Origin: Nesterenkonia sp. LB17
GTDB lineage: Bacteria > Actinomycetota > Actinomycetes > Actinomycetales > Micrococcaceae
Length of the DNA: 64,000 nucleotides
Assembly: GCF_022565915.1 (NCBI RefSeq)
Contig: NZ_JAJOYX010000002.1
Coordinates: forward strand, 442,293-506,292
Direction of reading: 5' to 3'
Made by a program: the position numbers and the translations under genes. Below the pieces are notes generated by a model that ran no database searches, was not told where the DNA came from, and saw only the letters and a list, made by a program, of their open reading frames with translations. Positions 15,050 to 44,293 of this stretch are shown here, piece by piece; the stretch's first letter is position 1, and every line of letters starts with the position of its first letter.

Positions 15050-15772
15050 ATGCGCACCGACACAGTCCAGAGTCTTCCCCAGGGCCTCTACCGCCCCGGA
15101 TCAGGGTTCTCCGCCGCCGAACTCCACGCCATGGTCCTTGAAGGCGCCGTGCGTCCGCTGCTGGGCGACCTCTACGCCTGCACCGCACTGCCGGACGCTC
15201 CGAGGCTGAGAGCCCTGGCCTGCCGGGCGCTGCTCAGCGGTTCACTGCGCGCCCACGCGGTGCTCTGCGGGGAATCCGCCGCATGGGTGCATTTGGGCGC
15301 CGGGACGGCACCCTCACGGATCACCGTGATCACCGCCGGGGTGTATCGGCGCCGCACGGCTGGTCCGATCCCCTGGCAGGTCCACCAGGTGCCGCTCTCG
15401 CCCGATGAGCAGCTCGAGCTGCAGGGGGTGCCGGTCACCACGCCGCTGCGCACCGCGGCCGACATCTTTCTGGGCATCGGCACCGTGCAGAGCCGCCGAG
15501 CCCTGGATGCGCCGCGCGCAGCGTCCAGACCTGCCGCGGCTTCCAACCCAGGCCCAGCTCCCACCACCGGCGCAGGCAGCAATGACGGGTGCGCGCAGCG
15601 GTGGGCGGCGATCCGGCGGCTCTGCGTCGCGAACCCGAAGCAGATTCAACCGGCCGCTCTTCTCCAGCAGATCCAGGCTCAGCTCGGTGGGAGGGACGCC
15701 GGCACCGACGCCGCACAGAGACGTCGGGACCGAATCGAGGCGCTGCTCGCCGCCCTGGTCTTCAGCGGATGA
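15050..15772 (+). CDS. AbiEi-antitoxin-like (type IV TA) protein
   Basis: An N-terminal winged-helix-like region (LYRPGSGFSAAELHAMVLEG), followed by RALACRALLSGSLRAHAVLCGESAAWVHLG and VPVTTPLRTAADIFLG, matches the pattern of actinobacterial AbiEi-family antitoxin domain proteins. ATG 15050 has GGGGAGG 8 nt upstream and is preferred over GTG 15044. It has 240 residues; many relatives are longer, so the C-terminus may have been shortened at the island edge. No partner toxin gene (AbiEii nucleotidyltransferase) is visible, so it may be a solitary chromosomal regulator. Function is inferred from family resemblance only. Confidence 0.5.
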   Translation: MRTDTVQSLPQGLYRPGSGFSAAELHAMVLEGAVRPLLGDLYACTALPDAPRLRALACRALLSGSLRAHAVLCGESAAWVHLGAGTAPSRITVITAGVYRRRTAGPIPWQVHQVPLSPDEQLELQGVPVTTPLRTAADIFLGIGTVQSRRALDAPRAASRPAAASNPGPAPTTGAGSNDGCAQRWAAIRRLCVANPKQIQPAALLQQIQAQLGGRDAGTDAAQRRRDRIEALLAALVFSG

Positions 15773-15831
15773 GCGCCTCTGGACGCAATGTCCGAACCCC
15801 ACGGTTAGGATAACTAGGGCATCCTGTGGCA

Positions 15832-16471
15832 ATGCCCACAGATCACGCCGTCGCCGCCGCAATCTACGTCCGAATCTCCAAGGACTCCGAGAAGCTCGGA
15901 CTCGGCACTGCCCGACAGCGCAAGGATTGCGAAGAACTGGCCCGGGAAAAGGGATGGACTGTCGTAGAGGTCTTCAAGGACGACGACACCTCTGCAAGCA
16001 ACGGCAAGGCCCGTCCGGCTTATCAGCGCATGGCCCGCGGGATCGAAGCAGGTCAAATCCAGGACATCATCGTGTGGGACGTGGATCGGCTCACCAGAAC
16101 GCCGCGTGAGCTCGAGGACTTCATCGACTGGGCCGACCAACATAAACTTCAGTTCGCCAAAACGGGTGGAGTCGTCGACCTCGCTACACCCCATGGCCGA
16201 ATGAACGCGCGCGTCAAGGGGGCCGTAGCTAGGGACGAAGCTGATCAGCAGCCACGTCGGCAAAAGCGCAAGTTGCTGAGGTTGGCAGAGGAAGATAAAT
16301 ATGTCGGGCCTTGACCATTCGGTTGGTTCGGACGACGAACCCTGACGGCACCAAGGGCAAGCAGCTCGTCCTCAATACCACCGAGGCTCAGATCGTGCGT
16401 GACGGCGCGGCGCGCGTCCTGTCGGCAAAATCCATACACTCCCTCACGCGAGATCTGAATGAACGAAAAGG
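15832..16471 (+). pseudogene. Broken large serine integrase (resolvase N-terminus)
   Basis: Residues 1-150 are a serine-recombinase catalytic domain: AAAIYVRISKDSEKLG (catalytic Ser), TARQRKDCEELAREKGW, DDTSASNGKARPAYQRM and VWDVDRLTRTPRELEDF. The expected KYVGPRPFGW motif reads KYVGP-stop-PFGW (TGA at 16312-16314). A frameshift follows, and the recombinase domain resumes in another frame (TNPDGTKGKQLVLN, VLSAKSIHSLTRDLNERKG) until it runs into IS481-like DNA near 16472. The zinc-ribbon/coiled-coil C-terminus is missing. It lies at the left edge of the island, so it may have mediated the original integration. TAGGAT at 15806-15811 could be its -10. Confidence 0.8.
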
Positions 16472-16764
16472 CTCCGCTCGTCCAACGCGTCACCATTGGC
16501 CAACCGGCAGCCCGCGTCACCTAAGAACTCGGGATCTCGCGCACCGCGGCCTATCGATGGCTGCGCCGCTATCGTGAAGAAGGCCCTGCCGGGCTCATCG
16601 ATCGGTCCTCCCGACCACGCAACAGCCCACCGCCACCGCGCCAGTGAAGATCCTGCGAGTGCTCCACGCCCCCCAGCGCGACCGTGAAGGACCCTCAGAC
16701 CTCTCGGTGCGCACTGGAGTTCCGGCGCGCACGATCTTGCGGATCATCGCCCGAGCCGGGTGGC
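16472..16764 (+). mobile_element. Degenerate IS481 remnant, 5' part (copy A)
   Basis: Aligns to bases about 50474-50760 of the intact IS481 at 50302-51406, but with many substitutions and in-frame stops. The terminal repeat is lost at the junction with the integrase. It is cut at GTGGCCTAG by insertion of a younger IS481 copy. The 3' part of the same remnant continues after the IS3 element at 18392. Confidence 0.75.
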
Positions 16765-17072
16765 CTAGGTGTACTCAGCCAGGACCTTGTTGACACGTGA
16801 GAAGAGGACGGAGACCTCTTAGGTTGGTGGTTACCACACGCAGCCAACTGATCTAAGAGGTCTCCATGTCCCACCGTACCGCCCGGATTCCCACCCTGAA
16901 CCACAACTGCCGGCTGACCCCACATGGCCGACTTCTGCTGGTCCAACGCGTCACCAACGGCCAACCAGCAGCCCACGTCGCCAAAGAACTCGGCATCTCG
17001 CGCACCGCGGCCTACCGGTGGCTGCGCCGCTATCGTGAAGAAGGCCCCGCCGGGCTCATCGATCGGTCCTCC
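16765..17072 (+). mobile_element. Truncated IS481 (copy B), 5' end with CTAG target
   Basis: CTAG target site at 16765-16768, then the terminal repeat GTGTACTCAGCCA and the first 300 bp of IS481, almost identical to the intact copy at 50302. It encodes the N-terminus of the transposase from ATG 16866 (MSHRTARIPTLNHN, helix-turn-helix HVAKELGISRTAAYRWLRRY). It ends abruptly at GATCGGTCCTCC where an IS3 element begins. The remaining 800 bp of this copy are gone, so the hybrid frame of 80 residues (to 17108) is not a functional gene. Confidence 0.85.
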
Positions 17073-17169
17073 GGGTCTGCTGACGGTTTAGTTGACCTCG
17101 TGACGTGACCTACAGTTTGGTTGCCACCATCCCTCGCTAGCCGATGGCCTTCCTGGAAGGCTGATCACC

Positions 17170-17466
17170 ATGCCACGCCCCTATCCTCCAGAGTTCAGGG
17201 CCCGCGCCATCTCACTCGTGCGCGAGGGCCGACCGGTCAAACAGACCGCAGCCGATCTCGGCATCCACGAGGTCACACTCCACTCCTGGCTGCGCCAGGA
17301 CGACATCGATCACGGTCTCCGACCGGGTCACACGACCCAGGAATCGGCGCAGCTGCGCGCCGCCCGCGCCAGGGTTCGTCAGCTCGAGCAAGAGATCTCG
17401 ATCCTCCGACGGGCATCCACCTGGCTCGATGAGGAGCCCCTCGACCCAAAAGAGCGCACCCGGTGA
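17170..17466 (+). CDS. IS3 transposase OrfA (copy 1)
   Basis: A 98-residue DNA-binding subunit: helix-turn-helix QTAADLGIHEVTLHSWLRQ (about 26-44) and a leucine-zipper-like helix RVRQLEQEISILRRAS near the C-terminus. The slippery heptamer C-CCA-AAA at 17445-17451, in the correct frame for a -1 shift, lies just before the stop and would produce an OrfAB fusion. Its TGA also overlaps the orfB GTG. Identical to the copy at 26773. Confidence 0.92.
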   Translation: MPRPYPPEFRARAISLVREGRPVKQTAADLGIHEVTLHSWLRQDDIDHGLRPGHTTQESAQLRAARARVRQLEQEISILRRASTWLDEEPLDPKERTR

Positions 17467-18329
17467 TCGACCGTCTTGTCGACGCCGGGGAGCCAGTGAA
17501 CACCTGCTGTCGCCTGCTCGGGGTTTCCCGTCAGGGGTATTACCGCTACAGGCGGCGCCCCACCAGCGCCACGGAACTGCGCCGACGCTGGCTCACCGGC
17601 CTCATCGGCGAGGTCCACATTGCGTCTCGTGGCACCTATGGGTACCGACGGATCCATGCCGAGCTCACGCTCGGGATGGGGATTACGTGCTCGAGTCGGC
17701 TCGTCTGGATGCTGATGAGCCGGGCAGGACTGGGTGGTCTACCAGGACCTACGCGGGTCAAGCGCCTCAAGGGCGTGGCCACAGCCGATGATCTGGTCAA
17801 CCGTAAGTTCCATCGCCTCGGGCTCAACGAACTCTGGGTCACGGACATTACCGAACATCCCACCAGGGAAGGCAAGATTTACTGCGCGGCGGTTCTGGAC
17901 GCGTGCAGCCGCAAGATCATTGGTTGGGCGATTGATTCCAAGCAGGACTCAAATCTGGTCGTCAACGCTCTGGATATGGCGATCCGCGCGCGAACCCCCA
18001 GCCCTGGTGGGATCGTTCATGCGGATCATGGAGTCCAGTTCACCTCGTGGGTGTTCACTCAGAAGATCCGCTCGGCAGGGCTTCTGCCCTCGTTCGGGAC
18101 CGTGGGTGACGGGTTGGATAATGCGATGATGGAGTCCTTCTGGTCCTCGATGCAGATCGAGTTGCTCAATCGCAAGAAGTGGCGGACCAGGGTCGAGTTG
18201 GCGAACGCGATATTCGAGTACATCGAGGTGTTCTACAACCGTCGACGCCGCCACTCCGGCATTGCTTACGCGACGCCTCATGACTATGACCTCGCTCACA
18301 CGATTCAACCGCTCACCGCCGGAAGCTAG
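17463..18329 (+). CDS. IS3 transposase OrfB (copy 1)
   Basis: A 288-residue DDE integrase-fold catalytic subunit. The N-terminal HTH_21 region (EVHIASRGTYGYRRIHAEL) precedes the catalytic triad: Asp in LWVTDITEH, Asp in IVHADHGVQFTS and Glu in NAMMESFWSSMQIELLN, with the usual YNRRRRHSGIAYATP tail. It is intact. Translation can start at GTG 17463 or by -1 frameshift from orfA. Identical in sequence to the copy at 27066. Confidence 0.93.
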   Translation: MIDRLVDAGEPVNTCCRLLGVSRQGYYRYRRRPTSATELRRRWLTGLIGEVHIASRGTYGYRRIHAELTLGMGITCSSRLVWMLMSRAGLGGLPGPTRVKRLKGVATADDLVNRKFHRLGLNELWVTDITEHPTREGKIYCAAVLDACSRKIIGWAIDSKQDSNLVVNALDMAIRARTPSPGGIVHADHGVQFTSWVFTQKIRSAGLLPSFGTVGDGLDNAMMESFWSSMQIELLNRKKWRTRVELANAIFEYIEVFYNRRRRHSGIAYATPHDYDLAHTIQPLTAGS

Positions 18330-18391
18330 CCAGACCGAGTGGAAACCAAACTGTAGGTCACGTCAAGGTCAACTAAACCGTCAGCAGACCC

Positions 18392-18840
18392 CAGCCCTCA
18401 GCGACCTGCTCCAGGTGGATGTGAAAAGGGTCGCCCGCATCCCGGCCGGGGGCGGCTGGCGCGGGCAATCAGGCCAGACCAGAGAACTCCAGAACACCGG
18501 GCGTCAGGAAGTGGACTTCGACTACATCCATCTGGCCGATAATGATCACTCTCGGCTCGCTTACACCCGAGGCGCTGCCCGATGAGACCGGACTGAGCTC
18601 AGCGGACTTCATGGCCCCAGGCGCGATGTTCATGAATGCCCGCGGCGCCCCGCTGAAACGCATGATCATCCATAGCGCACTGGCCCTACACACGGTCCCG
18701 AGCATTCCAGTCAGTGCCGGGCGGAAGCGGGGTGAAGCACCTGCGGACCAAACTTCGGCACCCATGAGAGAGCGGGAAAGCAGAGAGCTTCAACCGGACC
18801 CTGCAGGAAGGATGGATCAATCGGCGCCGCGACACTTCTA
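18392..18840 (+). mobile_element. Degenerate IS481 remnant, 3' part (copy A)
   Basis: Corresponds to about 50838-51290 of the intact IS481. DVKRVARIPAGGGW, AFMNARGAPLKRMIIHSALA-like segments and the FNRTLQEGW region are recognisable across different frames, with many substitutions and stops. The right terminal repeat is not recognisable. Confidence 0.7.
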
Positions 18841-19011
18841 AGCTCATCGGCCGGGTGAACACAACTCATACTGCCGGACGATAAGTCGCTCTGGAACCTA
18901 ACGGGCGTAGTACCACAAGACCTGAACCGCGATTCGAAATGAACTCTTGGCTCAGTGACGCCCAAGCAGCACGTCTCTGCCACGTGTGCCGCCGCAATCA
19001 GGACCTCGCCT

Positions 19012-20265
19012 TCAAACTAGGGAACCTCCCAGGCGCAACAAAACACCCGCCAGGTGATCGACTCCCGCGATGAGGTCTTCATCCCTGGTGTACTCATTCA
19101 CGTTGTGCGATATCCCATCCACACTAGGAACGAACAACATGACCGTAGGCACCTTATCCTTCATGTTTGTTGAGTCATGCCCCGCTATCGTCATGACTCG
19201 CTCCGACGTCAAACCAAGTTCGTTGGCCACCCCACGCGCTAGTTCAACACCATCCTCCGGATAGGGATTCTGTTCCCAGCTATGCTCTGCCACGGTCAGG
19301 ATATCAACGCGATCTCGACGGCCCACCTCGTGGATCGCCTCGGTGAACTTCTTGTAAGCCGCGCTCAGCACATCACTGCTGGGTGATCGCAGATCGAAGA
19401 GCAACTGCACTTCGCTCGCCACCACCACCGGCGAATTTGGGTAAATGTTCATATACCCGCAAGCGGTGTGCAATAATCCAGGATCAAACTGATCCACAAG
19501 TTCCCGCGCCGCGACAACTAATCGCGCAGCGCCCAGCAACGCGTCGGATCGCTCCTCCATCAGCGTTGAACCGCTATGAGCTTGCTCACCCGTAATTCGC
19601 AACTCAAACTTGTGCGCACCCCACACGGCATCTACGAGACCGATAGTGATCCCGTCCTCCTCCATGCTGCGTCCCTGCTGCACATGAATCTCGGCGTAGG
19701 ACGAGACGTCAACCCCGTCGAATATTCCGCGTTCCTGCAGAGAATCGAGAGCCTCATGAACGGAGACTCCCCGTGAGTCTGTCGTCGCTAGTGCCTCCTC
19801 AAGAGATAACTTCCCGGTAAATACGGAACTCCCCATCATCGAAGGCTTAAAACGAGACCCCTCCTCGTTAAACCAATTTACTACCGCCAGATTAAATGGC
19901 TTCAGAGACGGATCGTCGCGAAATTTTCTTGCCGCTCTAAAACAAGCATGAGCAGAGGCTAGGACGCCATACGCACCATCAAAACGGCCAGCAGTCGGTT
20001 GCGAGTCTAGATGGGAGCCAGTGAGCACGAAAGGCTGTCCAGGAGCCATTTCGAGCAAACCGAACTGGTTGCCGATCGCATCCCTTTCGACCCGGAAGCC
20101 GTGTGACTCCAGCAAAGTCGCAAACCACTTCCTTTGATTGCCGTCCGCCACAGACGCAGCCTGACGCTCAACACCTCCAGTACCTTCCACAGCCCCAAAA
20201 CTCGACAGCTCCATCCAGTCTTGGAGGAATTTCGCGTCCAAACTTGCATTAATTGAGTCGGTCAT
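19012..20265 (-). CDS. M20 Zn-dependent hydrolase (carbamoylase/hydantoinase type)
   Basis: A 417-residue M20-family amidohydrolase of the AllC/HyuC type, which hydrolyses N-carbamoyl amino acids, allantoate and similar ureido compounds. Metal-binding elements: TGSHLDSQPTAGRFDGAYGV (His and bridging Asp), WFNEEGSRF (Glu pair) and EIHVQQGR (His); the C-terminal ligands are in GHDSTNM and ISHNVNEY. The start MTDSINAS at 20265 has GGAAGG 6 nt upstream; the frame is open further up without a ribosome site. It lies 413 bp downstream of dctP on the same strand, with a 12-bp inverted repeat between them, so it may be a separate unit or the last operon gene. Codon use is less GC-biased than in the core genes. 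Confidence 0.85.
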   Translation of the reverse strand: MTDSINASLDAKFLQDWMELSSFGAVEGTGGVERQAASVADGNQRKWFATLLESHGFRVERDAIGNQFGLLEMAPGQPFVLTGSHLDSQPTAGRFDGAYGVLASAHACFRAARKFRDDPSLKPFNLAVVNWFNEEGSRFKPSMMGSSVFTGKLSLEEALATTDSRGVSVHEALDSLQERGIFDGVDVSSYAEIHVQQGRSMEEDGITIGLVDAVWGAHKFELRITGEQAHSGSTLMEERSDALLGAARLVVAARELVDQFDPGLLHTACGYMNIYPNSPVVVASEVQLLFDLRSPSSDVLSAAYKKFTEAIHEVGRRDRVDILTVAEHSWEQNPYPEDGVELARGVANELGLTSERVMTIAGHDSTNMKDKVPTVMLFVPSVDGISHNVNEYTRDEDLIAGVDHLAGVLLRLGGSLV

Positions 20266-20678
20266 AACTAACCTTCCTAAAGTCGCTGGGGTCGGCCTAC
20301 GTACTGTGACCACACGTTGCCCGCTTGCAACAATTGACCAGTTCGAATTCATAGGACGAAGTGAGGGAAAACACAACCTTCAACGTCGCCAAATAAGCGA
20401 CCTACATCAAAGGCTTTCTCGGCGGTTGGAGGACAAACAGGGGCAGACCATTCGTCAGAACAATCAACCCCATTGGACACGACAGTGGGTGATAGGCACA
20501 CAGTCTCCTCGGACACACGTACCTATCACCCACCGCACGGTGCTAGCTTCTCCTCCAGCGATGGCCACCGATCACTAGCAACGGCAACAATCGCATTTTC
20601 ATACTGGTAATCGCAATCGGATGGATCAAAAATAATCAGGAAAAGAAGCAAAACCCTGCATCATAACAAGACCCCATA
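20266..20678. other. 413-bp gap between dctP and the M20 hydrolase gene
   Basis: No coding frame is convincing. It holds the 12-bp inverted repeat at 20485-20533 and a GTTGC-N6-GCAAC motif near 20313-20328, upstream of the hydrolase start. Confidence 0.5.
20485..20533. repeat. Perfect 12-bp inverted repeat, terminator or operator
   Basis: GTGGGTGATAGG (20485-20496) and CCTATCACCCAC (20522-20533), 25-nt spacer. It lies 146 bp past the dctP stop and 220 bp before the M20 hydrolase start, so it could end the TRAP transcript or regulate the hydrolase. No T-tract is present on the minus-strand side. Confidence 0.55.
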
Positions 20679-21932
20679 TTACTCAGGACGCTGGCCAGTC
20701 AAGGACTCATCTCCAGTCAATTCCTCAAACCAAGGCTCAAGATCTACATCTTCCTCATACCAATCGGCAAGGTCCGCGATGTCCCCCCCATTCTCGTAAC
20801 CGAGTTCCGTCGCCCTGGCATCCCATTTCTCCTCGAACTGGGCAATGTCCTCACGAATGGACTCGGGCAAATCCCCATCCTCGATGTGGCCCTCAATGAG
20901 ATCATCGGTCACGCTACCTATAGCATCCTCCGTGTCATCTGAAAGAGGCTCGATGGAGCCACCGGCATCGAGCGCGCGTTCAAAGGACTGCGCCCAACCG
21001 TCAATACCGCCCTTAGTCCAAGGCGCAATCGACTCGTTCAAACCATCATAGAGAATCTGCTGGTATGGAAGTGGCAGATCGTTAAAGGCAGGACCGGCGA
21101 ACATCACTGCCGGTGAACGGTGAATGAAATGCTCTTCAGCGTAGCCGACCTCGGTGGCGACATCTGCATAGCCAAACTCGACAGAATCAGCGGCTTGAGT
21201 GAAAATGCAAGACACGGTGCCACGTTGCAACGCTTCATACGTTTCTGTGATGTCCATGGACACTCCCGTTCCGCCGAGCTCAGAAACAATGGTTGACTGA
21301 GCAACGGATGGGATGCGGACCTGCTGTCCGCTGAATTCATCAAGCTCCCTGACGGGTTGATTGCACATGTTCACATAACCGTTGTTCATGATATGCACTA
21401 GTGGCACCAGGTCCTGACTCGCGAACTCCTCATTAATGGCCTGGTCCGAGACCGCAAGCTCCCTGCCGACGGCCTGAGCAACAAGCTCTCCCTTGAATGG
21501 GTCCGTCGGGATCAATGCTGACGCTGTTGCATATGCGTTCATCACCGGAAACTCTTCTGGGTAGTAAATTGGGTTCGTGTAGCCGATGTCTATCCGACCG
21601 TCGACGACCGCCTGACGAACCTCGTCAAATCCCGCTGCCCCCATACCCCAAATGATCTCGACTTCGATTTGGCCATTGGACCGCTCTTCAACTAGATCTT
21701 GAAAGAGGATGGCCTGGCCACCCATCAGGCCCTGCTCGGAACCGGGAAGTGTCTGGAAGGTGATGTTGACGGGATCCAGATCCCCAATAGCATCGTCAAC
21801 GGAGGATTGCTCGGCGTCATACTCAAACCCAGCAGTGTCATCCGAATCCCCGGCCATACCACCACCGCAGGCACTAAGCCCTAGGAGGGACGAAAGTGCA
21901 ACCAGACTTAACGTTTTAGCGCGTACAGACAT
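20679..21932 (-). CDS. dctP: TRAP transporter solute-binding lipoprotein
   Basis: A 417-residue DctP-family extracytoplasmic receptor. Lipoprotein signal peptide MSVRAKTLSLVALSSLLGLS ending in the lipobox LSAC, then an acidic linker. The mature protein has the DctP features: IEVEIIWGMGAAGFDEVRQAV, NGYVNMCNQPVRELDEFSGQQVRIPS and ETYEALQRGTVSCIFTQAADS, where the conserved Arg of QQVRIP would bind the carboxylate of the ligand. AGCAGG lies about 8 nt before the ATG. It is the third gene of the C45-dctQ-dctM-dctP operon. The ligand is unknown; neighbours suggest an acyl- or carbamoyl-amino-acid-like compound. Confidence 0.9.
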   Translation of the reverse strand: MSVRAKTLSLVALSSLLGLSACGGGMAGDSDDTAGFEYDAEQSSVDDAIGDLDPVNITFQTLPGSEQGLMGGQAILFQDLVEERSNGQIEVEIIWGMGAAGFDEVRQAVVDGRIDIGYTNPIYYPEEFPVMNAYATASALIPTDPFKGELVAQAVGRELAVSDQAINEEFASQDLVPLVHIMNNGYVNMCNQPVRELDEFSGQQVRIPSVAQSTIVSELGGTGVSMDITETYEALQRGTVSCIFTQAADSVEFGYADVATEVGYAEEHFIHRSPAVMFAGPAFNDLPLPYQQILYDGLNESIAPWTKGGIDGWAQSFERALDAGGSIEPLSDDTEDAIGSVTDDLIEGHIEDGDLPESIREDIAQFEEKWDARATELGYENGGDIADLADWYEEDVDLEPWFEELTGDESLTGQRPE

Positions 21933-21978
21933 AATCTAAACCTGCTTTCTATTCATCAAGGGACAAGTTGGACTTCTT

Positions 21979-23493
21979 TTACCCGACGAGAGCCGGTAGC
22001 CATTCAACTAGTTCGGGTACAAAAATTAGAAAAACGATGAATGCAACCGCCACCGGAAGGAACCACGCCAGGGAGGTAAAAATATCACCTAATGTGATGT
22101 TGTGGCCGAGGTTCACTTCGGGATCTTTAGCTATCCCGTGAATTATGAATGACAGGATACCAACCGGCGGTGTGACCATAGCAAGCTCACCCAGTAGAAC
22201 CATAAAAATGCCAAACCAGATCAGACTTATATCCATTTGAGTCAGTATGGGAACGAGAATAGGAACTGTCAGCACCATCATGGATAGGGTATCAAAAAAC
22301 ATTCCCATTAGCAGGTACATCACCATCAGGGCGAGAAGAAACGTGATTGGGTTGAGATCAAACCCTACAATCCAGCTTGTAACTAATCGAGATAGACCTG
22401 TGATAGAGAGCAGCCTGGTGAGCAGTTCTGCACCTATGATGATGAAGAATATCGCAGCACTGGCAGAAACTGTTTTCAGAGCTGCCCGTCCGACTCGCTG
22501 AATCGCCCCGCTCTGGATGTTGGTGACAACAGCAACGACGAGTGCCATGAGCGCCGCTGCCGCACCTGCCTCTGTTGGTGTAAATGCACCAGAGAACAAT
22601 CCCCCAAACAGAACGAGCATTACGGCGGGAAAACCCCAGATTGGTAGAAGCGAGCTAAATCTGTCGCCCCATGAGTATTCAGAAGTGAACTTTTTGTCAC
22701 CAGCAGATTTCCCAACCAAAGCGGGCTTAAAGAACCCGATTGACAGTATTAGGGCTCCAAACGCAACAGCGATGAGCACCCCTGGAATCACACCGGCCAC
22801 AAGCTGCTGTCCCACGGGAACGGTTGCTATGCCAGCATAAACTACTAGGAGGATTGAAGGTGGAATAACGGAACCGGGTATGCCCGCTACGATCACTGTA
22901 CCGACTGCCATTTTCTTGTTGAAACCCGCTCGCAGCAGCTCCGGTATAGCAGCACGAGCGAGCGCGTATGTCATGCCTATGGTTGATCCAGATACGGACG
23001 CGAGCCCCGCACCTGCCGCAGTGGTGCCGACTCCTGCGCCTCCTGGAAGCCAACCAAACCACCGCTCCGTCGCGCGGTAAATCTTTGTGGTCAGGCCTGA
23101 CTCGACCATTAGCATTCCCATGAAGATAAACGCAGGGATCACGCTGTACGTCCAGCTAGCAACCGTGTTGAACGGAGCGCTCGAGAGCACAGAGACGGCG
23201 GACGCCGTACCACTTACGACATATATGCCTAGAACACTGGGTACGGAGATAGCAATCGCGACTGGAACGGCCAAGAAGATCAGCACGAGCATCAGGGCAA
23301 TGCTCCAGATGCCGGCTACTGCGGGAGAACCCGAGGTAAGCAGACCAGCGATACAAACGGCCAAGATGCCAAACCCTAGGATTAAGCCTTTAGCGGTCGG
23401 CTTTCCTAGTCTTGAATTTCTAATAAGCATAGAAGGCTGGGGTGCAAGATGATGCTGCGACTCTATGCCAGCATCCTGGTTGTGGGTTTTCAC
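21979..23493 (-). CDS. dctM: TRAP transporter large permease
   Basis: A 504-residue DctM-type membrane protein with about 12-13 hydrophobic segments. Family hallmarks: VIPAFIFMGMLMVESGLTTK, GAGLASVSGSTIGMTYAL, AGIPGSVIPPSILLVVYAGI and FFDTLSMMVLTVPILVPI. Its roughly 40-residue polar N-terminus is longer than usual, and Met 22 is a possible internal start. It lies 46 bp before dctP and 40 bp after dctQ. It forms the sodium-driven importer together with DctQ. Confidence 0.93.
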   Translation of the reverse strand: MKTHNQDAGIESQHHLAPQPSMLIRNSRLGKPTAKGLILGFGILAVCIAGLLTSGSPAVAGIWSIALMLVLIFLAVPVAIAISVPSVLGIYVVSGTASAVSVLSSAPFNTVASWTYSVIPAFIFMGMLMVESGLTTKIYRATERWFGWLPGGAGVGTTAAGAGLASVSGSTIGMTYALARAAIPELLRAGFNKKMAVGTVIVAGIPGSVIPPSILLVVYAGIATVPVGQQLVAGVIPGVLIAVAFGALILSIGFFKPALVGKSAGDKKFTSEYSWGDRFSSLLPIWGFPAVMLVLFGGLFSGAFTPTEAGAAAALMALVVAVVTNIQSGAIQRVGRAALKTVSASAAIFFIIIGAELLTRLLSITGLSRLVTSWIVGFDLNPITFLLALMVMYLLMGMFFDTLSMMVLTVPILVPILTQMDISLIWFGIFMVLLGELAMVTPPVGILSFIIHGIAKDPEVNLGHNITLGDIFTSLAWFLPVAVAFIVFLIFVPELVEWLPALVG

Positions 23494-23533
23494 ACTTACA
23501 ACTCCGGTTTTTGAAGAGGGCTTTATTGCGCAG

Positions 23534-24043
23534 CTATGATGGGCTAGTAATCAGCTGAGGCTCTAGTTCTTTTCTTACTACGATTAAATATAGAGTATAT
23601 GCATATAGGCCACTCATGAGAGCAAATACAAGAGGAACTACGTAATACACCGGCCAGATAGTGATTGTCGTGATTCCTGCAGTCGCGCCGACCTGCATTC
23701 TGTGCAAGGCTTCAAAGAATCCGAAGTAGGCGAAGAGTGCGCACAGTGCCATTCCCACCAAACAAGCGAATCCTCTAAAGACAAGGGCATTGGCTTTTTT
23801 CATTCGATCTACAACCAGCGTGGCGGTTATATGTTCCCTTTGCAAAAGGGCTGCGGGTAGACCCAGGAGGGCGACGAGTGGCACGTATAGAAACTCGATG
23901 AGCTCGTTGGTCGCTGGAAGCGGTGCGCCAAGTAGAAATCTAGATAAGGCGTGCGTCGTGACGTGCAGCATCATGCAGACAATAACCGCTGCAGTCATCA
24001 CAGTTAGCACTCGGTCCAAGTGCGATAGTTTGCTACGCTTCAT
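23534..24043 (-). CDS. dctQ: TRAP transporter small permease
   Basis: A 169-residue, four-helix DctQ-family protein. Hydrophobic segments lie at about 12-33, 45-62, 86-107 and 128-152. The conserved region ATNELIEFLYVPLVALLGLPAALLQREHI matches the family. The start MKRSKLSHL lies 14 bp after the C45-protein stop, indicating a tight operon. Confidence 0.88.
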   Translation of the reverse strand: MKRSKLSHLDRVLTVMTAAVIVCMMLHVTTHALSRFLLGAPLPATNELIEFLYVPLVALLGLPAALLQREHITATLVVDRMKKANALVFRGFACLVGMALCALFAYFGFFEALHRMQVGATAGITTITIWPVYYVVPLVFALMSGLYAYTLYLIVVRKELEPQLITSPS

Positions 24044-24057
24044 GATATCAGAACCTT

Positions 24058-25149
24058 CTACCCGTGCAAGGGAAATCGCAGCGTTTTATCAACGGTGTTA
24101 TTTTCGGCATTTTCTAGAATTATATCCATACTTTGCTCGCTCATGTCGAACGAAAATGTCATCAGAGTCTGTATCTCTGGTTTTACCGAAGTTGAAGCGG
24201 TTGTTTTGCCATCCGCAAGAGCGACTGCTCTAAGTTGTTTCGCCAGCATATCCGCTCGCTGTTGGAGCTTCTGGGGCAGAGGGTTTGCCTCGTTGATCGC
24301 CTTAACTGCCTCCAGCCTGGCTTCAGAATCCTCTCGCGAAGCTCCGTCAATACGATCTTCATTAGACAGAGAATCATCGATAAAATGGTTTGTGTGATAC
24401 TGATATGGCCCAGTGTTTGGGAGTTTCGCAACTCCCACTGGCGAAACTTCGACCATTGCGGCTCGAACAGTCGTCGCACTTGCGTCGAGGATAGTGGCAA
24501 CGTACGAACCCATTCGCGGGATACTGCGCGCAATTTGAATGACGTCGTCAAGTCCTTTACCGCTCTCCATCAAGTACTGCTGTACCGCGTGAGCCGGTAT
24601 ACCCTCAGCGAGTCCATCACTTTTATGAGACAAGAGATTCATGTGAAATGCGACTCGATTTGACGTGATGCCAAATTTATTAGGCATTCCAGGCTCCCTG
24701 AATGCGAGAACGCCAACGCCATTCTGTTCGTAATTAACCACTAGACAGGTCTCGATTAACTCGGGATACATGTCCCAAGTCTGAACCGTGGTGGCTGAAT
24801 TCGCTCTGCGGTCGTCATGTAGTACAGTGCTACACTCCGCCGGGCTCATCAAATTAGAGCGACTGAAGATCTCGTTGCGAGCCGCGAGTGCTGCCAGCTG
24901 ACGAAGGTCAACTCCAGAGCTTTGTGCCGTCCCCCGCATTTCATCGTACTGATCTGGTGCATGAGACTCCAGCCCAGTCAGCGCCCGATTGGCACAAGAT
25001 TCGATCACGTGATTGTCAAACCCATTGAGTTCGAAGAACTCTACGTACCTGTCGCGGCTCGCGCGAACTTCTCTGCGAAATTCTTCCCCAATCTGAACCC
25101 CCCTGTCATTAGCGGTCCCCGGGTCAATGACGAGTTGTTTGATCTGCAA
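24058..25149 (-). CDS. C45 family autoproteolytic acyltransferase/hydrolase
   Basis: A 363-residue protein resembling peptidase family C45 (isopenicillin-N acyltransferase-like Ntn hydrolases). These are self-cleaved before a nucleophilic Cys and act on acyl-amide bonds. The N-terminal segment QLAALAARNEIF is followed by SPAECSTVL with Cys106 as the predicted nucleophile; VVNYEQNGVGVLAFREPGMP, GITSNRVAFHMNLL, and YHTNHF follow the family pattern. TTG 25149 is chosen because AGGGGG lies 6 nt upstream; an ATG at 25173 is the alternative. It is the first gene of the TRAP operon, so its substrate is probably the imported solute (inference). A CRP-like site and a small palindrome lie upstream. Confidence 0.75.
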   Translation of the reverse strand: MQIKQLVIDPGTANDRGVQIGEEFRREVRASRDRYVEFFELNGFDNHVIESCANRALTGLESHAPDQYDEMRGTAQSSGVDLRQLAALAARNEIFSRSNLMSPAECSTVLHDDRRANSATTVQTWDMYPELIETCLVVNYEQNGVGVLAFREPGMPNKFGITSNRVAFHMNLLSHKSDGLAEGIPAHAVQQYLMESGKGLDDVIQIARSIPRMGSYVATILDASATTVRAAMVEVSPVGVAKLPNTGPYQYHTNHFIDDSLSNEDRIDGASREDSEARLEAVKAINEANPLPQKLQQRADMLAKQLRAVALADGKTTASTSVKPEIQTLMTFSFDMSEQSMDIILENAENNTVDKTLRFPLHG

Positions 25150-25234
25150 TGTCTTCCCCCTCAAAATAAACATATGCTGATGAATACCTGCATCCAGGGT
25201 ACGAACGGAATAAGAGCACCCTGCTGGTCTGGTC

Positions 25235-25247
25235 GAGACTTAGTCTC
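25235..25247. promoter_or_regulatory. Small perfect palindrome upstream of the TRAP operon
   Basis: GAGACT-T-AGTCTC lies 86 bp upstream of the C45-gene start, between it and the CRP-like site. It could be a repressor operator; no regulator gene is adjacent. Confidence 0.35.
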
Positions 25248-25261
25248 ATCACTACTTTTGG

Positions 25262-25277
25262 TGTGATGCTGCTCACG
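25262..25277. promoter_or_regulatory. CRP/GlxR-like site upstream of the TRAP operon
   Basis: TGTGATGCTGCTCACG matches TGTGA-N6-TCACA in 9 of 10 consensus positions. It is centred about 120 bp upstream of the C45-gene start. GlxR/CRP is the cAMP-responsive global regulator of actinobacterial carbon metabolism. Binding is inferred. Confidence 0.45.
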
Positions 25278-25503
25278 TTACCGGGATCTGGCCAGAGTCT
25301 ACACGACTGGCAGGCTGTGGCGGCCAAGGAACTTGGTGCGCGCCAGAGCCACTGGGTCGACGCGGCCCGAGGGAACGCTCTGAGTCCAAACCTGCTCATG
25401 CTCGCCTGCTGTAATAGGTCAATTGGACCTCCCGGGGATCAATCTAGTTCCCGACTATAGATAGACTGCTAACTCACGGTTAAGGGTGCCTCTATGGTTT
25501 TCG

Positions 25504-25888
25504 TCAAGCCGCCAGGGAGTGCTCTGATGCGATCGGGGCGACCGGGTCTTGGTACAGAGTGCCATCGCGCAGCGTCGCGTAGGGGGTGTCCAGCCGGCGC
25601 CGAGCCAGCGCGAAGATGGACTGCTTATGCCGCTTACCCCCAGCAATCTTCCGGTCGTAATAGGCCCTCGAGGGCGGGTGCTGCAGGGCCGCGAACGCTG
25701 GGTTGTAGAGACTCGATTTCAGCCGCTTGTTCCCGCCTCGGTTGGCGAACTCTCCACCAATGGAAGTCCCGGAACGCCTCGTGGTGGGTGCAATGCCGGC
25801 GTACGAGACCAGGTGGCCTGCGGTCTTGAATGCCTATCCCACCACTTCTGTGGGGATCCTGGCGACGGTCCTAACTCCGACTGAAGGG
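25504..25888 (-). pseudogene. IS110 transposase remnant, C-terminal part
   Basis: The minus strand reads TVARIPTEVVG, then a stop, then AFKTAGHLVSYAGIAPTTRR, RGGNKRLKSSLYNPAFAALQ, YYDRKIAGGKRHKQSIFALA and ATLRDGTLYQDPVAP. This is the Transposase_20 half of IS110. The post-stop sequence CTTGACGAAAACCATAGAGG resembles the end of the IS110 copy at 37724, so the right end is preserved. The N-terminal half lies beyond a BON-domain fragment. Confidence 0.8.
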
Positions 25889-26217
25889 CGTCGAAATCGG
25901 GACTTCGTCAAAGAGGGTGGGCCTCCACCAGGGCCTCTGAGTGATCTGGTTTCTAAATCTGTGAGCCACCGAGATCCCGCGGGGACGACGGTCCCGTAGT
26001 TGGACGCAGAGGTCACGCCCCGGACACGTCGAGTGATGCGGTCAACGGCGAGAAGTTCGGAGTACGTCCCAACGACGCCAGTGAGAGTCGCCGTCGAGTC
26101 TCCCACTAGAACCACGATACTGGAGGCGTCAAGGTCAGGTGTCCACTGGAGTTTCGCGCGGACTGCGGTGTCGATGGTGCGGTCCGTGTGGGTCTTGGTC
26201 GGTGATGGGCTCTGCAT
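25889..26217 (-). pseudogene. Truncated BON-domain protein fused to an IS110 remnant
   Basis: From ATG 26217 (GGAGG 9 nt upstream) the frame reads a BON-like domain: TIDTAVRAKLQWTPDLDAS, IVVLVGDSTATLTGVVGTYS and AVDRITRRVRGVTSA, the alternating beta-alpha pattern of OsmY/BON proteins. After about residue 90 it continues into sequence without BON features and, near residue 110, into IS110 transposase residues without a stop. Full-length BON proteins usually carry two or three domains, so this is a truncated gene joined to the IS. Confidence 0.6.
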
Positions 26218-26303
26218 AGACGAGGTCCTCCAGTTCCGGCCCGCAGTGTTGTAGGCCTGATTTCACTGTCCTCGGCCCGCTTGAGGACTGTTAGGGGCTT
26301 AGG

Positions 26304-26675
26304 TCACACCGCTGCAAGGGGAAGATTCTGGGTGAGCAGTCCGCGCAGCCGGTTCCTGGCCGCGGTGGTCTGGCCCAGCAGGCCATCATCGAACCTAGCC
26401 AGCACCGCGAGTTCAGCGACCTGTTCATCAGAAACTGCGATCGAGCGCAACGCCGCTGGCATGGTGCGAGCGGTTTCGGCGATCATGAACGCGTCCCGGG
26501 CATCGGTCTTGGCTGATCCAGCGTGCAGATCCGCCATCCGGCGCATCGTCCGCCCCGGCAGGTAAGCGACTTCAATCGCAGGCATGGCTTGGGCGACTGC
26601 CACGGGCAGGGCCCAATGTTGGCTGGTTGATCCACCACGACGAGAGCTGCGCCGTGATCCCTGGTCAGGGCGGTG
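26304..26675 (-). pseudogene. IS110 transposase remnant, middle part
   Basis: The minus strand reads ALVVVDQPTNIGP, a frameshift near 26610, then MPAIEVAYLPGRTMRRMADL, AKTDARDAFMIAETARTMP and LGQTTAARNRLRGLLTQ, then a stop. It is the DEDD-domain part of the IS110 element whose start lies beyond IS3 copy 2 (28145). Removing the IS3 and one copy of its 3-bp duplication restores REFFTALTRDHGAAL. Confidence 0.8.
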
Positions 26676-26772
26676 GGGTCTGCTGACGGTTTAGTTGACC
26701 TCGTGACGTGACCTACAGTTTGGTTGCCACCATCCCTCGCTAGCCGATGGCCTTCCTGGAAGGCTGATCACC

Positions 26773-27069
26773 ATGCCACGCCCCTATCCTCCAGAGTTCA
26801 GGGCCCGCGCCATCTCACTCGTGCGCGAGGGCCGACCGGTCAAACAGACCGCAGCCGATCTCGGCATCCACGAGGTCACACTCCACTCCTGGCTGCGCCA
26901 GGACGACATCGATCACGGTCTCCGACCGGGTCACACGACCCAGGAATCGGCGCAGCTGCGCGCCGCCCGCGCCAGGGTTCGTCAGCTCGAGCAAGAGATC
27001 TCGATCCTCCGACGGGCATCCACCTGGCTCGATGAGGAGCCCCTCGACCCAAAAGAGCGCACCCGGTGA
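26773..27069 (+). CDS. IS3 transposase OrfA (copy 2)
   Basis: 98 residues, identical to the copy at 17170. Helix-turn-helix QTAADLGIHEVTLHSWLRQ, C-terminal zipper-like helix, and the -1 slippery heptamer C-CCA-AAA (27048-27054) before its stop. Confidence 0.93.
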   Translation: MPRPYPPEFRARAISLVREGRPVKQTAADLGIHEVTLHSWLRQDDIDHGLRPGHTTQESAQLRAARARVRQLEQEISILRRASTWLDEEPLDPKERTR

Positions 27070-27932
27070 TCGACCGTCTTGTCGACGCCGGGGAGCCAGT
27101 GAACACCTGCTGTCGCCTGCTCGGGGTTTCCCGTCAGGGGTATTACCGCTACAGGCGGCGCCCCACCAGCGCCACGGAACTGCGCCGACGCTGGCTCACC
27201 GGCCTCATCGGCGAGGTCCACATTGCGTCTCGTGGCACCTATGGGTACCGACGGATCCATGCCGAGCTCACGCTCGGGATGGGGATTACGTGCTCGAGTC
27301 GGCTCGTCTGGATGCTGATGAGCCGGGCAGGACTGGGTGGTCTACCAGGACCTACGCGGGTCAAGCGCCTCAAGGGCGTGGCCACAGCCGATGATCTGGT
27401 CAACCGTAAGTTCCATCGCCTCGGGCTCAACGAACTCTGGGTCACGGACATTACCGAACATCCCACCAGGGAAGGCAAGATTTACTGCGCGGCGGTTCTG
27501 GACGCGTGCAGCCGCAAGATCATTGGTTGGGCGATTGATTCCAAGCAGGACTCAAATCTGGTCGTCAACGCTCTGGATATGGCGATCCGCGCGCGAACCC
27601 CCAGCCCTGGTGGGATCGTTCATGCGGATCATGGAGTCCAGTTCACCTCGTGGGTGTTCACTCAGAAGATCCGCTCGGCAGGGCTTCTGCCCTCGTTCGG
27701 GACCGTGGGTGACGGGTTGGATAATGCGATGATGGAGTCCTTCTGGTCCTCGATGCAGATCGAGTTGCTCAATCGCAAGAAGTGGCGGACCAGGGTCGAG
27801 TTGGCGAACGCGATATTCGAGTACATCGAGGTGTTCTACAACCGTCGACGCCGCCACTCCGGCATTGCTTACGCGACGCCTCATGACTATGACCTCGCTC
27901 ACACGATTCAACCGCTCACCGCCGGAAGCTAG
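27066..27932 (+). CDS. IS3 transposase OrfB (copy 2)
   Basis: 288 residues, identical to the copy at 17463, with all three DDE residues present (TDITEH, HADHGVQF, MMESFWS). The GTG start overlaps the orfA stop. With perfect ends and an intact duplication, this copy appears capable of transposition. Confidence 0.94.
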   Translation: MIDRLVDAGEPVNTCCRLLGVSRQGYYRYRRRPTSATELRRRWLTGLIGEVHIASRGTYGYRRIHAELTLGMGITCSSRLVWMLMSRAGLGGLPGPTRVKRLKGVATADDLVNRKFHRLGLNELWVTDITEHPTREGKIYCAAVLDACSRKIIGWAIDSKQDSNLVVNALDMAIRARTPSPGGIVHADHGVQFTSWVFTQKIRSAGLLPSFGTVGDGLDNAMMESFWSSMQIELLNRKKWRTRVELANAIFEYIEVFYNRRRRHSGIAYATPHDYDLAHTIQPLTAGS

Positions 27933-27999
27933 CCAGACCGAGTGGAAACCAAACTGTAGGTCACGTCACGAGGTCAACTAAACCGTCAGCAGACCCGTG

Positions 28000-28145
28000 A
28001 AAAACTCTCTGAGCCGGGTCTCGTCGTTGGGCAGGGGCCTGTCGTAGACCTTTTCCCCGTCATGGGTGAGGGCGGTGGCGTGTTGTTCTGATTTACCCCC
28101 ATCGAGGCCGATGAACAGCGGGAAGTCCTGAGGTTCCAAGGCCAC
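28000..28145 (-). pseudogene. IS110 transposase remnant, N-terminal part
   Basis: From GTG 28145 (GGAG about 8 nt upstream) the frame reads VALEPQDFPLFIGLDGGKSE, then HATALTHDGEKVYDRPLPND, the first catalytic Asp region of IS110 DEDD transposases. It is cut by IS3 copy 2 after REFFT. Confidence 0.8.
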
Positions 28146-28560
28146 GAGCTTCTCCAGTCCCTTTCAGAAACTCGTCACCACTACGGGCATGACGCCTGCG
28201 GCGGTCAGTCATCCAGTCCGGACCCAGAACATTTCAGGGCAGTCGGTGGGCGGGTCATGCTCGGCATCCAAGTTAGAAACCAAGCCCTCGGAACCATTAA
28301 CGGCGCTGGGGCGTCCTGCCTCTCACTTGAATGGCAGAGCGGCCGGCACTTCGGAGCCTGCAGCTTCGTAGTGTCGATGTTGACGGTCAGCATTGGTCCG
28401 CGTGCCTCTTGCCGCCCCAGGAATGGGGTTGGTTCACTGATTGGGTGCCTGGCTGACCGTGATCGGCCCTGGGTGTGGTGCGACAGAGGCGTGTGGGTGA
28501 TTCAAAGTCAGTGTGCCCACCGAGGGAGCTTCATATCCCTACGAGTGGAAGCAGCTCATC
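28146..28560. other. Back-to-back left ends of two IS110 elements
   Basis: About 415 bp between the divergent IS110 transposase starts at 28145 (-) and 28561 (+). No convincing coding frame. In the IS110 group the non-coding left end can encode a bridge RNA that selects target and donor. This region could hold one or two such RNAs, but I cannot define the structure by eye. Confidence 0.4.
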
Positions 28561-29596
28561 ATGACTGTCATCGGAATCGACCCCCCATAAATCATCACTG
28601 ACCGCCGCAGCTCTGGAAGCCGATGGGACGAACAGCGCCACCCGTCGTTTTGCTGTGAACAAGGGCACGGGCCCTGCCGTTCTGGCGTGGGCGGCACGGT
28701 TCGAGGATGTCCTCTTCGCGGTGGAAGTTGCTCGGGGCCTCGGACGAGGTATCTCCCAGTTCCTTCTGAGTCAGGGCCATGACGTCCTCGATGTGCCCTC
28801 CCCTTTGTCGATGAAGGCCCGGGTCCTGCACACCGGTGGCGGGCGGAAGTCCGACGCCGCTGATGCGCGAGCCGTGGGCTGGGTCGCTCAACATCACGAA
28901 GGTCTCCGGTCGGTGTCGGCTGAGGACCACGCCGAGATTCTTGACCTGCTGACCCGCGAACGAGACGGGCTCCAAAGTGAACGCACCCGCGCGCTGAATC
29001 GCCTCCACGACCTGCTCCGGGACCTGATTCCTGGTGGAGTGCCACGAGGTCTGACGCTGACAAGGGGTCGAGCTGCGCTGAGGGGCCTGCGGCCCGCGAC
29101 TGCGATAGGTCAGACTCGTCGGGATCTGGCGCGCGATCTGATCGGTGAGGTGGCCCGGCTGGAGAAGCTCATGGATGACTACGAGCACCGCATCGCTGAG
29201 GAACTGCAGGCATCAGGCACTTCACTGCTGGGGCTCCAGGGCATCAGCACGATCATGGCTGGAAAGGTCTTGGGCGAGGTCGGCGACGTGCACCGGTTCC
29301 GCTCGGCCAGCCACTTCGCCAGCTACACCGGAGCGGCGCCCTTAGATACCTCCAGTGGAGACAACCTGAGGCAGCGGTTGAATCCTGGTGGCAATCGCCG
29401 CTTGAACTCGGTGCTTCACGTCATGGCGGTGTGCCAGATCCAGCATGGAGGTTTCGGCCGCGATTACTACCTGAAGAAACTGGCGGAGGGCAAGACCCCT
29501 CGAGAAGCTCGCAGGGCCCTCAAGCGAAGGCTGAGCAATGTCATCTACCGCACGATTCTCAAGGACCTCAGCACAGGCGCATCGGCCAACTCTTGA
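28561..29596 (+). pseudogene. IS110 transposase, one-base frameshift in a C-run
   Basis: ATG 28561 opens MTVIGIDP and then hits a stop because a run of six C (28581-28586) carries one extra base. In the +1 frame HKSSLTAAALEADGTNSATRR continues into a full DEDD domain (KSDAADARAVGWVAQHH) and the Transposase_20 domain (SLLGLQGISTIMAGKVLGEV, SYTGAAPLDTSSGDNLRQRL, YYLKKLAEGKTPREARRALK) to a stop at 29596. Apart from this single indel the gene looks intact. A sequencing error, phase-variable slippage or a +1 ribosomal shift are all possible. Confidence 0.85.
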
Positions 29597-29906
29597 CACA
29601 GAGGCCCTATCAGCGATCCATGCTCCGCCGCGACCAGTCCCTGGGCGACAACACGCCCTCGAGTTCCCTGGCTTCTCTCTGTGAGTTGGTTATGTCCCCT
29701 TTCTGCCCACCGCCCGCGCTGGACGGATGTGCCCCGCGATGCGGGGCGTCAGACCCGACTGTGTCTAGAGACACGAAAGTTGTCCCATCTATTGGCGGAC
29801 CAATTTCTGATAAGCCCAGGCGAACCGGTGATGCAGTGGCGTTAGTCACACTTGTGTAGCATGGTTGCCAAAACCCAAGTGCTTTCATACCCACCAAGGA
29901 GACCTA
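29597..29906. other. Upstream region of the M20 deacylase gene
   Basis: No gene is seen. It contains the right end of the IS110 element and GTGTC-TAGA-GACAC near 29760-29774. TGTGTAGCAT (29853-29862) may be an extended -10 for the downstream deacylase. Assignment is weak. Confidence 0.3.
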
Positions 29907-31205: not shown

Positions 31206-31680
31206 GCAGCCTTGAACGCGGTCTATCGTACCACGAACGCAAAGCCAGCTCTGCTGATTACCTGTGGGGACTTGGGGGTGGTGCACCGCTCGTGTAACTC
31301 AGTGAACGCGGTCTCATGTGGAGACAGACCAGCGAACAAGCAGTTTCAGTGCGCGTCAGGCCCCTCGACAGACAGCTGACTACCGACACCGAGAAAAAGA
31401 AACATCACCAAATAAGTAATCTTGCTTGGATAGCATTACTCTCCGGGTAGGGATTTCGTGTTCCAGCAGAGGGCGCCTCCTCAAATTTGATCGTCGGGGT
31501 TTCAGGGATTTTAAATCCTACTCTGGCACAACTTGATTCCCCAGTGAATGCATAACTGCACCCAAGAAACGACCAACAGTGCTTCATGCTAAGCTTGCAA
31601 AGTTTGTGGATCTTCGTCGTCCTAATACTTCCCTAGACAAAAAGAACTGACTATTCTGTTATATCCGACGGGACTTCTGA
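31206..31680. other. 475-bp intergenic region before the MFS gene
   Basis: No coding frame is credible. The only structure seen is an 11-bp direct repeat GAACGCGGTCT (near 31215 and 31303). The 3' part is AT-richer and may hold the MFS promoter. Confidence 0.4.
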
Positions 31681-32949: not shown

Positions 32950-32961
32950 CAGGACTTTATT

Positions 32962-37724: not shown

Positions 37725-38030
37725 CAAAGAACATAGGGGCACCCCCGGATCATGGGGTGACTCTGGGCAAGCGCCAAGGCCCAGAGACCGGACCGACCAA
37801 CACCACTCCTCCTGCCGCAGAAACGGTGTCCTTCGTCGCCAACGGCGGGAAGGTCCTTCGGGACTGTCGAGTAGCCGGCCCCCATTGATACCCGGGCGCT
37901 GGAATCGAATGAGTGTCATCGAGGTCTTCACATGGGCAGTCTAAGGAACGCCATCTCTGACAGACTCGGATGTCATTCGACCACTGCCGCGCAGATCGTT
38001 GCCCCCACTAGATAGGGAAAACTCATACAC
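37725..38030. other. 306 bp between the IS110 remnant and the amidohydrolase gene
   Basis: The first 30 bp are the IS110 right end. Nothing else is recognisable. Confidence 0.4.
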
Positions 38031-44240: not shown

Positions 44241-44293
44241 CTGTGGCGTGAGACACATTCCTAAGTGCCTGATAGAAACCCGAAGGGCTAGCC

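Follow-up and report, generated by a model that had tools for sequence, protein, structure and literature searches.

The described enzymes closest to a C45-family protein of Nesterenkonia sp. LB17 are isopenicillin N acyltransferase (IAT; structures 2x1c and 2x1d), itself a C45 enzyme, and, next to it, NAAA and acid ceramidase, which are lysosomal animal enzymes acting on fatty amides. The gene for this protein stands beside genes of two further kinds with described counterparts, namely a transporter resembling the DctPQM-type tripartite ATP-independent periplasmic (TRAP) systems, which are importers, and an M20 amidase of the AllC/HyuC/beta-alanine synthase type, relatives of which also occur in Micrococcaceae in clusters with an Amidohydro_3 amidohydrolase and, in part, an ArgE-type deacylase. 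The DNA considered here (the window) is a stretch of 64,000 nucleotides of contig NZ_JAJOYX010000002.1 (assembly GCF_022565915.1, positions 442,293 to 506,292), in which the C45 gene, the three TRAP genes and the M20 gene follow one another on the minus strand.

In this locus, the C45 gene and the genes dctQ, dctM and dctP form a tight operon. The parts are of known kinds, and their combination is new among the genomes sampled. In the best reading, the TRAP system takes the place of the importer usually found beside C45; the whole block is tentatively regarded, at somewhat less than an even chance, as part of an acquired island, reshuffled by insertion sequences (IS) and catabolising acid-bearing amides. 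With an importer, its binding protein and an amidase in one compact operon, the substrate class of a bacterial C45 enzyme becomes open to testing.

The C45–TRAP operon

Five open reading frames (ORFs) without internal stops, encoding C45, DctQ, DctM, DctP and M20, occupy window positions 19012–25173. An earlier interpretation made from the letters alone (the sequence-only reading) had likewise taken the genes to be intact; the span that it gave, 19012–25277, includes all five but ends about 100 bp past the C45 gene. All five proteins score above the curated Pfam cut-offs, and NCBIfam agrees with Pfam on the families, with the exception of DctQ, which had no NCBIfam match. The intergenic gaps from C45 through DctQ and DctM to DctP are 14, 40 and 46 bp. 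Since the C45 gene lies only 14 bp from dctQ, on the same strand, and no IS separates it from the three TRAP genes, co-transcription of all four is, judging from this layout, very likely.

The three TRAP components occur together, each well above its Pfam cut-off (DctQ 66 against 28.3 bits, DctM 252.5 against 23.8, DctP 77.4 against 23.4), so the earlier claim that the C45 gene heads a complete TRAP operon is borne out by scores and spacing alike. The system resembles the DctPQM-type transporters in having all three components, with Q and M as separate proteins, but differs from them in that its operon starts with a C45 gene and in that it falls below the narrower NCBIfam models, both for DctM (TIGR00786, 217.3 of 268.45 bits) and for DctP (TIGR00787, 41.5 of 175.05 bits). 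DctP carries an LSAC lipobox and, compared with solved binding proteins, retains the arginine of a GQQVR (GxxxR) stretch; in TRAP binding proteins, this arginine serves carboxylate binding. Its Protein Data Bank (PDB) matches are 4n6d, 4pgn and 4nap, of which the last two were reportedly solved with indole-type ligands, a point on which a search for the two entry codes gave no relevant paper and which was given no weight here. The DctP model built without an alignment (pLDDT 34.2) is too poor for ligand inference.

The C45 enzyme

The first gene product passes the profile cut-offs of its class (PF03417, AAT/C45, 72.7 against 23.2 bits; NF040521, 170.5 against 85), possesses a conserved nucleophilic cysteine and is predicted to adopt an N-terminal nucleophile (Ntn) fold. 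Its AlphaFold model (pLDDT 87.2, pTM 0.89) matches best the IAT precursor 2x1c (E 1.3e-21, TM 0.78/0.82), followed by NAAA, acid ceramidase, penicillin V acylase and bile salt hydrolases; the first three of these are, like IAT, Cys-Ntn amidases. In a sequence alignment, Cys114 corresponds to an IAT position occupied by Cys in 2x1d and by Ala in 2x1c; Asp134 falls on the aspartate of the IAT QNWD stretch. Model and alignment together make the Ntn fold and the role of Cys114 as the nucleophile well supported.

The numbering depends on the start codon. Counted from ATG 25173, which has no visible ribosome site, the predicted nucleophile is Cys114; from TTG 25149, which is preceded by a good site (GAGGGGG), it is Cys106, as in the sequence-only reading, whose numbering is thus plausible for that start. 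No obvious signal sequence is seen by eye.

Conservation was followed in an alignment of 32 sequences, namely the window protein and 31 relatives, thinned by similarity from the 58 of 80 C45 loci (see below) with a usable frame. Glu113-Cys114, Gln131-Thr-Trp-Asp134 and His260-Thr-Asn-His-Phe264 are invariant in it. The window enzyme thus shares with IAT the fold over most of its length, the position of the nucleophilic cysteine and the aspartate of the QxWD stretch, but the two are only 18% identical in the structural alignment, the residue before the cysteine is Gly in IAT and an invariant Glu in the window enzyme and its aligned relatives, and the window enzyme is bacterial and encoded beside an importer. 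This Glu113 (codon at approximately 24832–24834, counted from ATG 25173) is a possible mark of the self-cleavage site of the branch. NAAA and acid ceramidase, the next-best structures, belong to the same fold class and make amide hydrolysis the likely chemistry, but are only 11–12% identical to the window protein. We infer that the enzyme would cleave itself and would hydrolyse its substrate rather than transfer an acyl group. The highest identity among the C45 matches listed is 37%, over part of the protein; therefore, the window C45 is itself divergent.

The M20 amidase and the gap before it

The M20 protein belongs to the hydantoinase/carbamoylase family (Peptidase_M20 of Pfam, 68.9 against 24.6 bits; TIGR01879, 272.5 against 204). 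It narrowly misses its closest subfamily (NF006772, 423.2 against 424 bits), and the solved structures that match it best are 5tp4, designated a hydantoinase/carbamoylase-family amidase, and beta-alanine synthase. It also contains HLD, NEEG and SHN stretches, which we take to be motifs of hydantoinase/carbamoylase-type M20 enzymes. The AllC/HyuC label given earlier holds at the level of this family, whereas an identity as AllC (allantoate deiminase) was rejected, the protein reaching only 173.4 of 597.75 bits in TIGR03176. Hence, the likeness to the AllC/HyuC/beta-alanine synthase type lies in the TIGR01879 cut-off, and the difference in a score just below the closest subfamily and far below AllC.

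The likely M20 start, ATG 20265, is preceded by a ribosome site (AGGAAGG) and lies 413 bp beyond the DctP stop. The gap contains a stem of about 19 bp with a predicted fold of -46.5 kcal/mol, against a mean of -31.5 kcal/mol for shuffled sequences (z -4.46). It is called here a hairpin rather than a terminator because no T-run was found in the sequence following the stem. A pattern search of the 2.8-Mb genome, allowing up to one mismatch, found no second copy of its 15-base arm motif, and a repeated genomic element was accordingly rejected; the single-copy hairpin may represent an attenuator, a processing site or an IS scar. Owing to the gap and this very stable hairpin, M20 is probably a transcription unit of its own, and its place as the fifth gene of the same operon, as had been assumed, is not confirmed. 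The coordinates are collected in Table 1.

Table 1. Window coordinates of the C45–TRAP–M20 block and of other features of the island
Feature	Position	Strand	Supporting evidence
M20 hydantoinase/carbamoylase-type amidase	19012..20265 (ORF listed from 20376)	-	TIGR01879 272.5 bits
Hairpin in the dctP/M20 gap	20482..20536 (ends approximate)	-	predicted fold -46.5 kcal/mol, z -4.46
dctP, lipoprotein solute-binding protein	20679..21932	-	PF03480 1.5e-21
dctM, TRAP large permease	21979..23493	-	PF06808 8.6e-75
dctQ, TRAP small permease	23534..24043	-	PF04290 4e-18
C45-family Ntn amidase/acyltransferase	24058..25173	-	PF03417 4.7e-20; NF040521 170.5 bits
Genomic island, ~36.8 kb between core genes	15520..52300	.	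empty site in relatives; lower G+C content
IS3-family copy 1	17073..18391	+	26-bp perfect terminal repeats; no target duplication seen
IS3-family copy 2	26676..27996	+	possible 3-bp target duplication GTG on both sides
ArgE/DapE-type deacylase	29865..31205	+	NF005306 618.5 bits (cut-off 376)
Amidohydro_3 (YtcJ-like) amidohydrolase	38031..39674	-	PF07969 3e-87

Search for the gene order in other genomes

A single-sequence C45 scan of the contigs of named genomes found no relative; relatives were recovered with an alignment of closer relatives. The named-genome set comprises the best 80 of 203 stretches (37 from Pseudomonas, 14 from Burkholderia), some with short flanks. None of these 80 loci contains a relative of the window DctM, DctP or M20 by tblastn or profile. 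In the genomes of the same family and phylum, C45 relatives were present in 15 of 197 and 4 of 396, respectively (own genome included), and the 19 neighbourhoods gave no relative of DctQ, DctM, DctP or M20; for one neighbourhood, the C45 match was not found again by tblastn.

Strict cut-offs (C45 1e-10, DctM 1e-40, M20 1e-120, Amidohydro_3 1e-80, ArgE 1e-140) were applied to the family genomes. With the own genome excluded, 27 DctM, 71 M20 and 17 C45 matches were obtained, and no contig of the 197 genomes combined a DctM match with a C45 or an M20 match; C45 and M20 matches shared a contig twice, at distances of 40.6 kb and 2.2 Mb. Neither C45 nor M20 was detected in eight DctM neighbourhoods (7 of the 27 family matches and the only phylum match passing 1e-90). 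The five plasmid-borne C45 stretches opened, out of 33 matching records, were free of relatives of DctQ, DctM, DctP and M20. A C45 search of 185 genomes of another class matched only the centre genome and is uninformative on TRAP neighbours there.

The C45–TRAP–M20 order is, then, not conserved in the samples taken, and the combination on the island is so far unique among the genomes sampled. The sequence-only reading had proposed one conserved C45–TRAP–M20 system and had itself named the absence of the order elsewhere as what would refute it; the order was absent from every sample tested. Its statement that it knew of no characterised pathway with this order agrees with searches of open-licence literature, in which no relevant paper on bacterial C45 function or on the C45–TRAP–M20 order was found with narrow word combinations, subscription journals being mostly outside those searches.

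Neighbourhoods of C45 and M20 relatives

Gene calls at the C45 loci and in the M20 neighbourhoods came from a simple script, which makes the cluster counts approximate (even the C45 cluster was picked up at only 62 of the 80 loci). An Amidohydro_3 gene was found at 57 of the 80 C45 loci by profile and at 55 by tblastn (21 within 500 bp, 32 at 0.5–4 kb and 2 further away). The link was observed in 53 of 59 proteobacterial loci against 4 of 21 actinobacterial ones: Pseudomonas contributed 34/37, Burkholderia 14/14, Paraburkholderia 1/3, Halomonas 0/1, and Yokenella, Zobellella, Ventosimonas and a Neisseriaceae member 1/1 each, against Nonomuraea 2/2, Microbacterium 2/10, Arthrobacter 0/3 and other actinobacteria 0/6. 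Twelve C45-bearing genomes contain 3–9 Amidohydro_3 matches each (fragments included) in 4–11 Mb; therefore, such a gene would be expected by chance within 10 kb of about 1–5% of loci.

Importer genes are also present around C45 elsewhere. A major facilitator superfamily (MFS) cluster was detected at 47 of the 80 loci, a LysR cluster (the name being our own reading) at 32, peptide-type ATP-binding cassette (ABC) genes at 8 and copper amine oxidase at 5, all of the latter from Microbacterium. In five Microbacterium loci, copper amine oxidase and peptide-type ABC genes lie upstream of C45, and on an Agrobacterium plasmid, genes for a primary-amine oxidase, LysR, MFS and C45 are close together. 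The amine oxidases suggest amide-linked amines as C45 substrates, and the C45 loci elsewhere look catabolic and equipped with an importer. Overall, the linkage of C45 with Amidohydro_3, an importer and sometimes copper amine oxidase points to the hydrolysis of N-acyl amines or amino acids. A C45 relative was seen on a plasmid of Burkholderia stagnalis, inside a cluster of acyl-carrier, ketosynthase and AMP-binding genes, so the family may also serve biosynthesis.

The M20 relatives have a different company. An Amidohydro_3 gene lay within 500 bp of 48 of the 71 family M20 matches and within 10 kb of 5 more, with none near the remaining 18, and 13 of the 23 family matches of the ArgE-type deacylase lay within 10 kb of an M20 match. 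Twenty neighbourhoods were fetched, drawn from the 71 M20 and 99 Amidohydro_3 family matches; an MFS permease, a PucR-like regulator, a thiamine diphosphate (ThDP) enzyme, Rid and RraA are also repeated there. Amidohydro_3, M20, the ThDP enzyme, the PucR-like regulator, MFS, Rid, RraA and ArgE were observed as a recurrent cluster in family genomes, and the recurrent Amidohydro_3–M20 cluster seems to encode a separate catabolic pathway. The association of M20 with C45–TRAP that the earlier reading had drawn is replaced, in its relatives, by one with Amidohydro_3 and ArgE-type genes.

Compared with these Micrococcaceae-type clusters, the island carries intact relatives of M20, ArgE and Amidohydro_3 (50–60%, 54–67% and, in full-length matches, 36–52% identical to their relatives, respectively), but its copies are spread among IS elements across 20 kb, the C45–TRAP genes are added, neither the ThDP enzyme nor the regulator was seen to have a relative in the window, and the Amidohydro_3 belongs to a different branch. 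The Amidohydro_3 proteins paired with M20 elsewhere are mostly 39–45% identical to that of the window.

The island and its insertion sequences

The block lies in a segment inserted between core genes, with lipoate enzymes, S4 and alanyl-tRNA synthetase on the left and RelA, SecF, SecD and RuvB on the right. A flanking gene was searched for in 21 genomes of the same genus (own included), and the site was checked in three, in all of which it is empty: window segments 1–15.52 kb and 52.30–63.84 kb align with them at about 82–93%, with small gaps, and the two flanks of the island are only 415, 288 and 290 bp apart. The G+C content, in 2-kb bins, is 51–64% in the island against 64–72% in the flanks. 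Genes or pieces of IS3, IS110, IS481 and ISL3 type occur in the island, so the block was rightly described earlier as lying in a graveyard of IS elements.

The C45–TRAP–M20 genes sit between two IS3 copies of the same direction that differ by a 2-bp indel. A simple composite transposon was nevertheless rejected: two flanking copies are present, but the outer ends read TCC on the left and GTG on the right, and the GTG pair flanks copy 2 alone, leaving no outer target duplication. The near-identity of the copies is a sign that the element moved recently, and recombination could delete or relocate the 9.6 kb that they enclose. Right before copy 1 (window 16473–17072), part of an IS-like gene is repeated over 139 bp at 91% identity. 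Upstream of C45 and on its strand, we read a remnant of an IS110 element that extends to about 25505 and contains a BON-domain ORF.

Possible function and competing explanations

If the block belongs to an island for the catabolism of acid-bearing amides, membrane-anchored DctP and the TRAP permease would import a small carboxylate bearing an amide. The cytoplasmic C45 amidase, after self-cleavage before Cys114, would hydrolyse the amide bond of the imported compound (an N-acyl-amine or N-acyl-amino-acid). The M20 amidase, expressed separately or attenuated by the hairpin, may then act, together with the island ArgE-type deacylase and Amidohydro_3, on released or related amide or ureido fragments. 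Because such genes travel together elsewhere, M20, ArgE and perhaps Amidohydro_3 may share compounds; import via TRAP, and the operation of all these enzymes in one pathway, we infer. Of the readings considered, TRAP import of an amide-bearing acid followed by hydrolysis agrees best with the fold, the operon and the surroundings of relatives elsewhere.

Several observations weigh against this reading. C45 occurs with TRAP in no other genome sampled, so IS elements may have brought the two together accidentally. The C45–Amidohydro_3 association is weak in Actinobacteria (4 of 21 named loci, 3 of 19 family and phylum neighbourhoods), and the window Amidohydro_3 is only 23–28% identical to those linked to C45. 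The ArgE-type gene lies on the strand opposite to C45–TRAP–M20. Among the 23 closest Amidohydro_3 relatives (at least 47% identity), only one has an M20 match within 10 kb, and several of the closest M20 matches (60%) have no Amidohydro_3 match nearby; the two window proteins therefore need not be a true pair, and the Amidohydro_3 may not be the partner of M20. One C45 relative (27% identity) belongs to the biosynthetic cluster mentioned above. Finally, the nearest DctQM pair in a family genome (50% and 60% identity by tblastn; DctM 62% in another search) serves an acyl-CoA cluster devoid of relatives of the window amidases.

The last point bears directly on a real but lesser possibility, namely that the genes are chance neighbours: IS elements would have placed an ordinary organic-acid TRAP operon by an unrelated C45 and M20, and the imported compound would be a plain carboxylic acid, either a dicarboxylate or an acid of an acyl-CoA pathway. 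The surroundings of that DctQM pair are, in our reading of the translations, acyl-CoA ligases, dehydrogenases, enoyl-CoA hydratases and a thiolase; a likely glutarate module is located on the same island, and the gene order was seen nowhere else in the samples. This explanation is opposed by the 14 bp between C45 and dctQ, the common strand and the lack of an IS between C45 and the TRAP genes. As a separate observation, three DctP matches occur in the 20-kb stretch around the nearest DctQM.

The catabolic reading also has a bolder form, which is held to be unlikely: a new route assembled by IS elements, in which TRAP and C45 would open an amide-linked acid, Amidohydro_3, M20 and ArgE would finish it, and the glutarate module would be a possible outlet. 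That the acid is of the kind entering other bacteria via MFS or ABC importers is put at the same low level. If true, such a route would give this bacterial C45 branch a catabolic substrate class.

Still less probable is one linear pathway, in which TRAP would import an acylated ureido or lactam acid, C45 would deacylate it and M20 would hydrolyse the carbamoyl group. The five genes share strand and order, and the M20 protein exceeds the hydantoinase/carbamoylase cut-off and finds its best PDB matches in that family and beta-alanine synthase, but the 413-bp gap with its hairpin intervenes, the AllC cut-off is missed, and M20 is accompanied in the samples by Amidohydro_3 and ArgE rather than by C45 or TRAP. 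That C45 is an acyltransferase or another product-making enzyme, with TRAP handling its product or precursor, is very improbable: its model matches best an acyl-CoA-dependent transferase, and one of its relatives is encoded in the midst of acyl-carrier and ketosynthase genes, but most interpretable C45 neighbourhoods look catabolic and TRAP systems are importers.

Other genes of the island

At window positions 46697–49883, genes for a GntR/FCD regulator, a class III CoA-transferase and a glutaryl-CoA dehydrogenase-like protein lie in a row. The closest model of the CoA-transferase is succinate-glutarate CoA-transferase (352.5 of 750 bits), and the dehydrogenase-like protein matches 3swo (E 3.3e-163); the three genes are likely a glutarate module, with a hint that it may serve as an outlet of the amide route. 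A further row on the plus strand, at 29865–33864, comprises the ArgE deacylase, an MFS transporter and a gene of the dihydrodipicolinate synthase (DHDPS) family.

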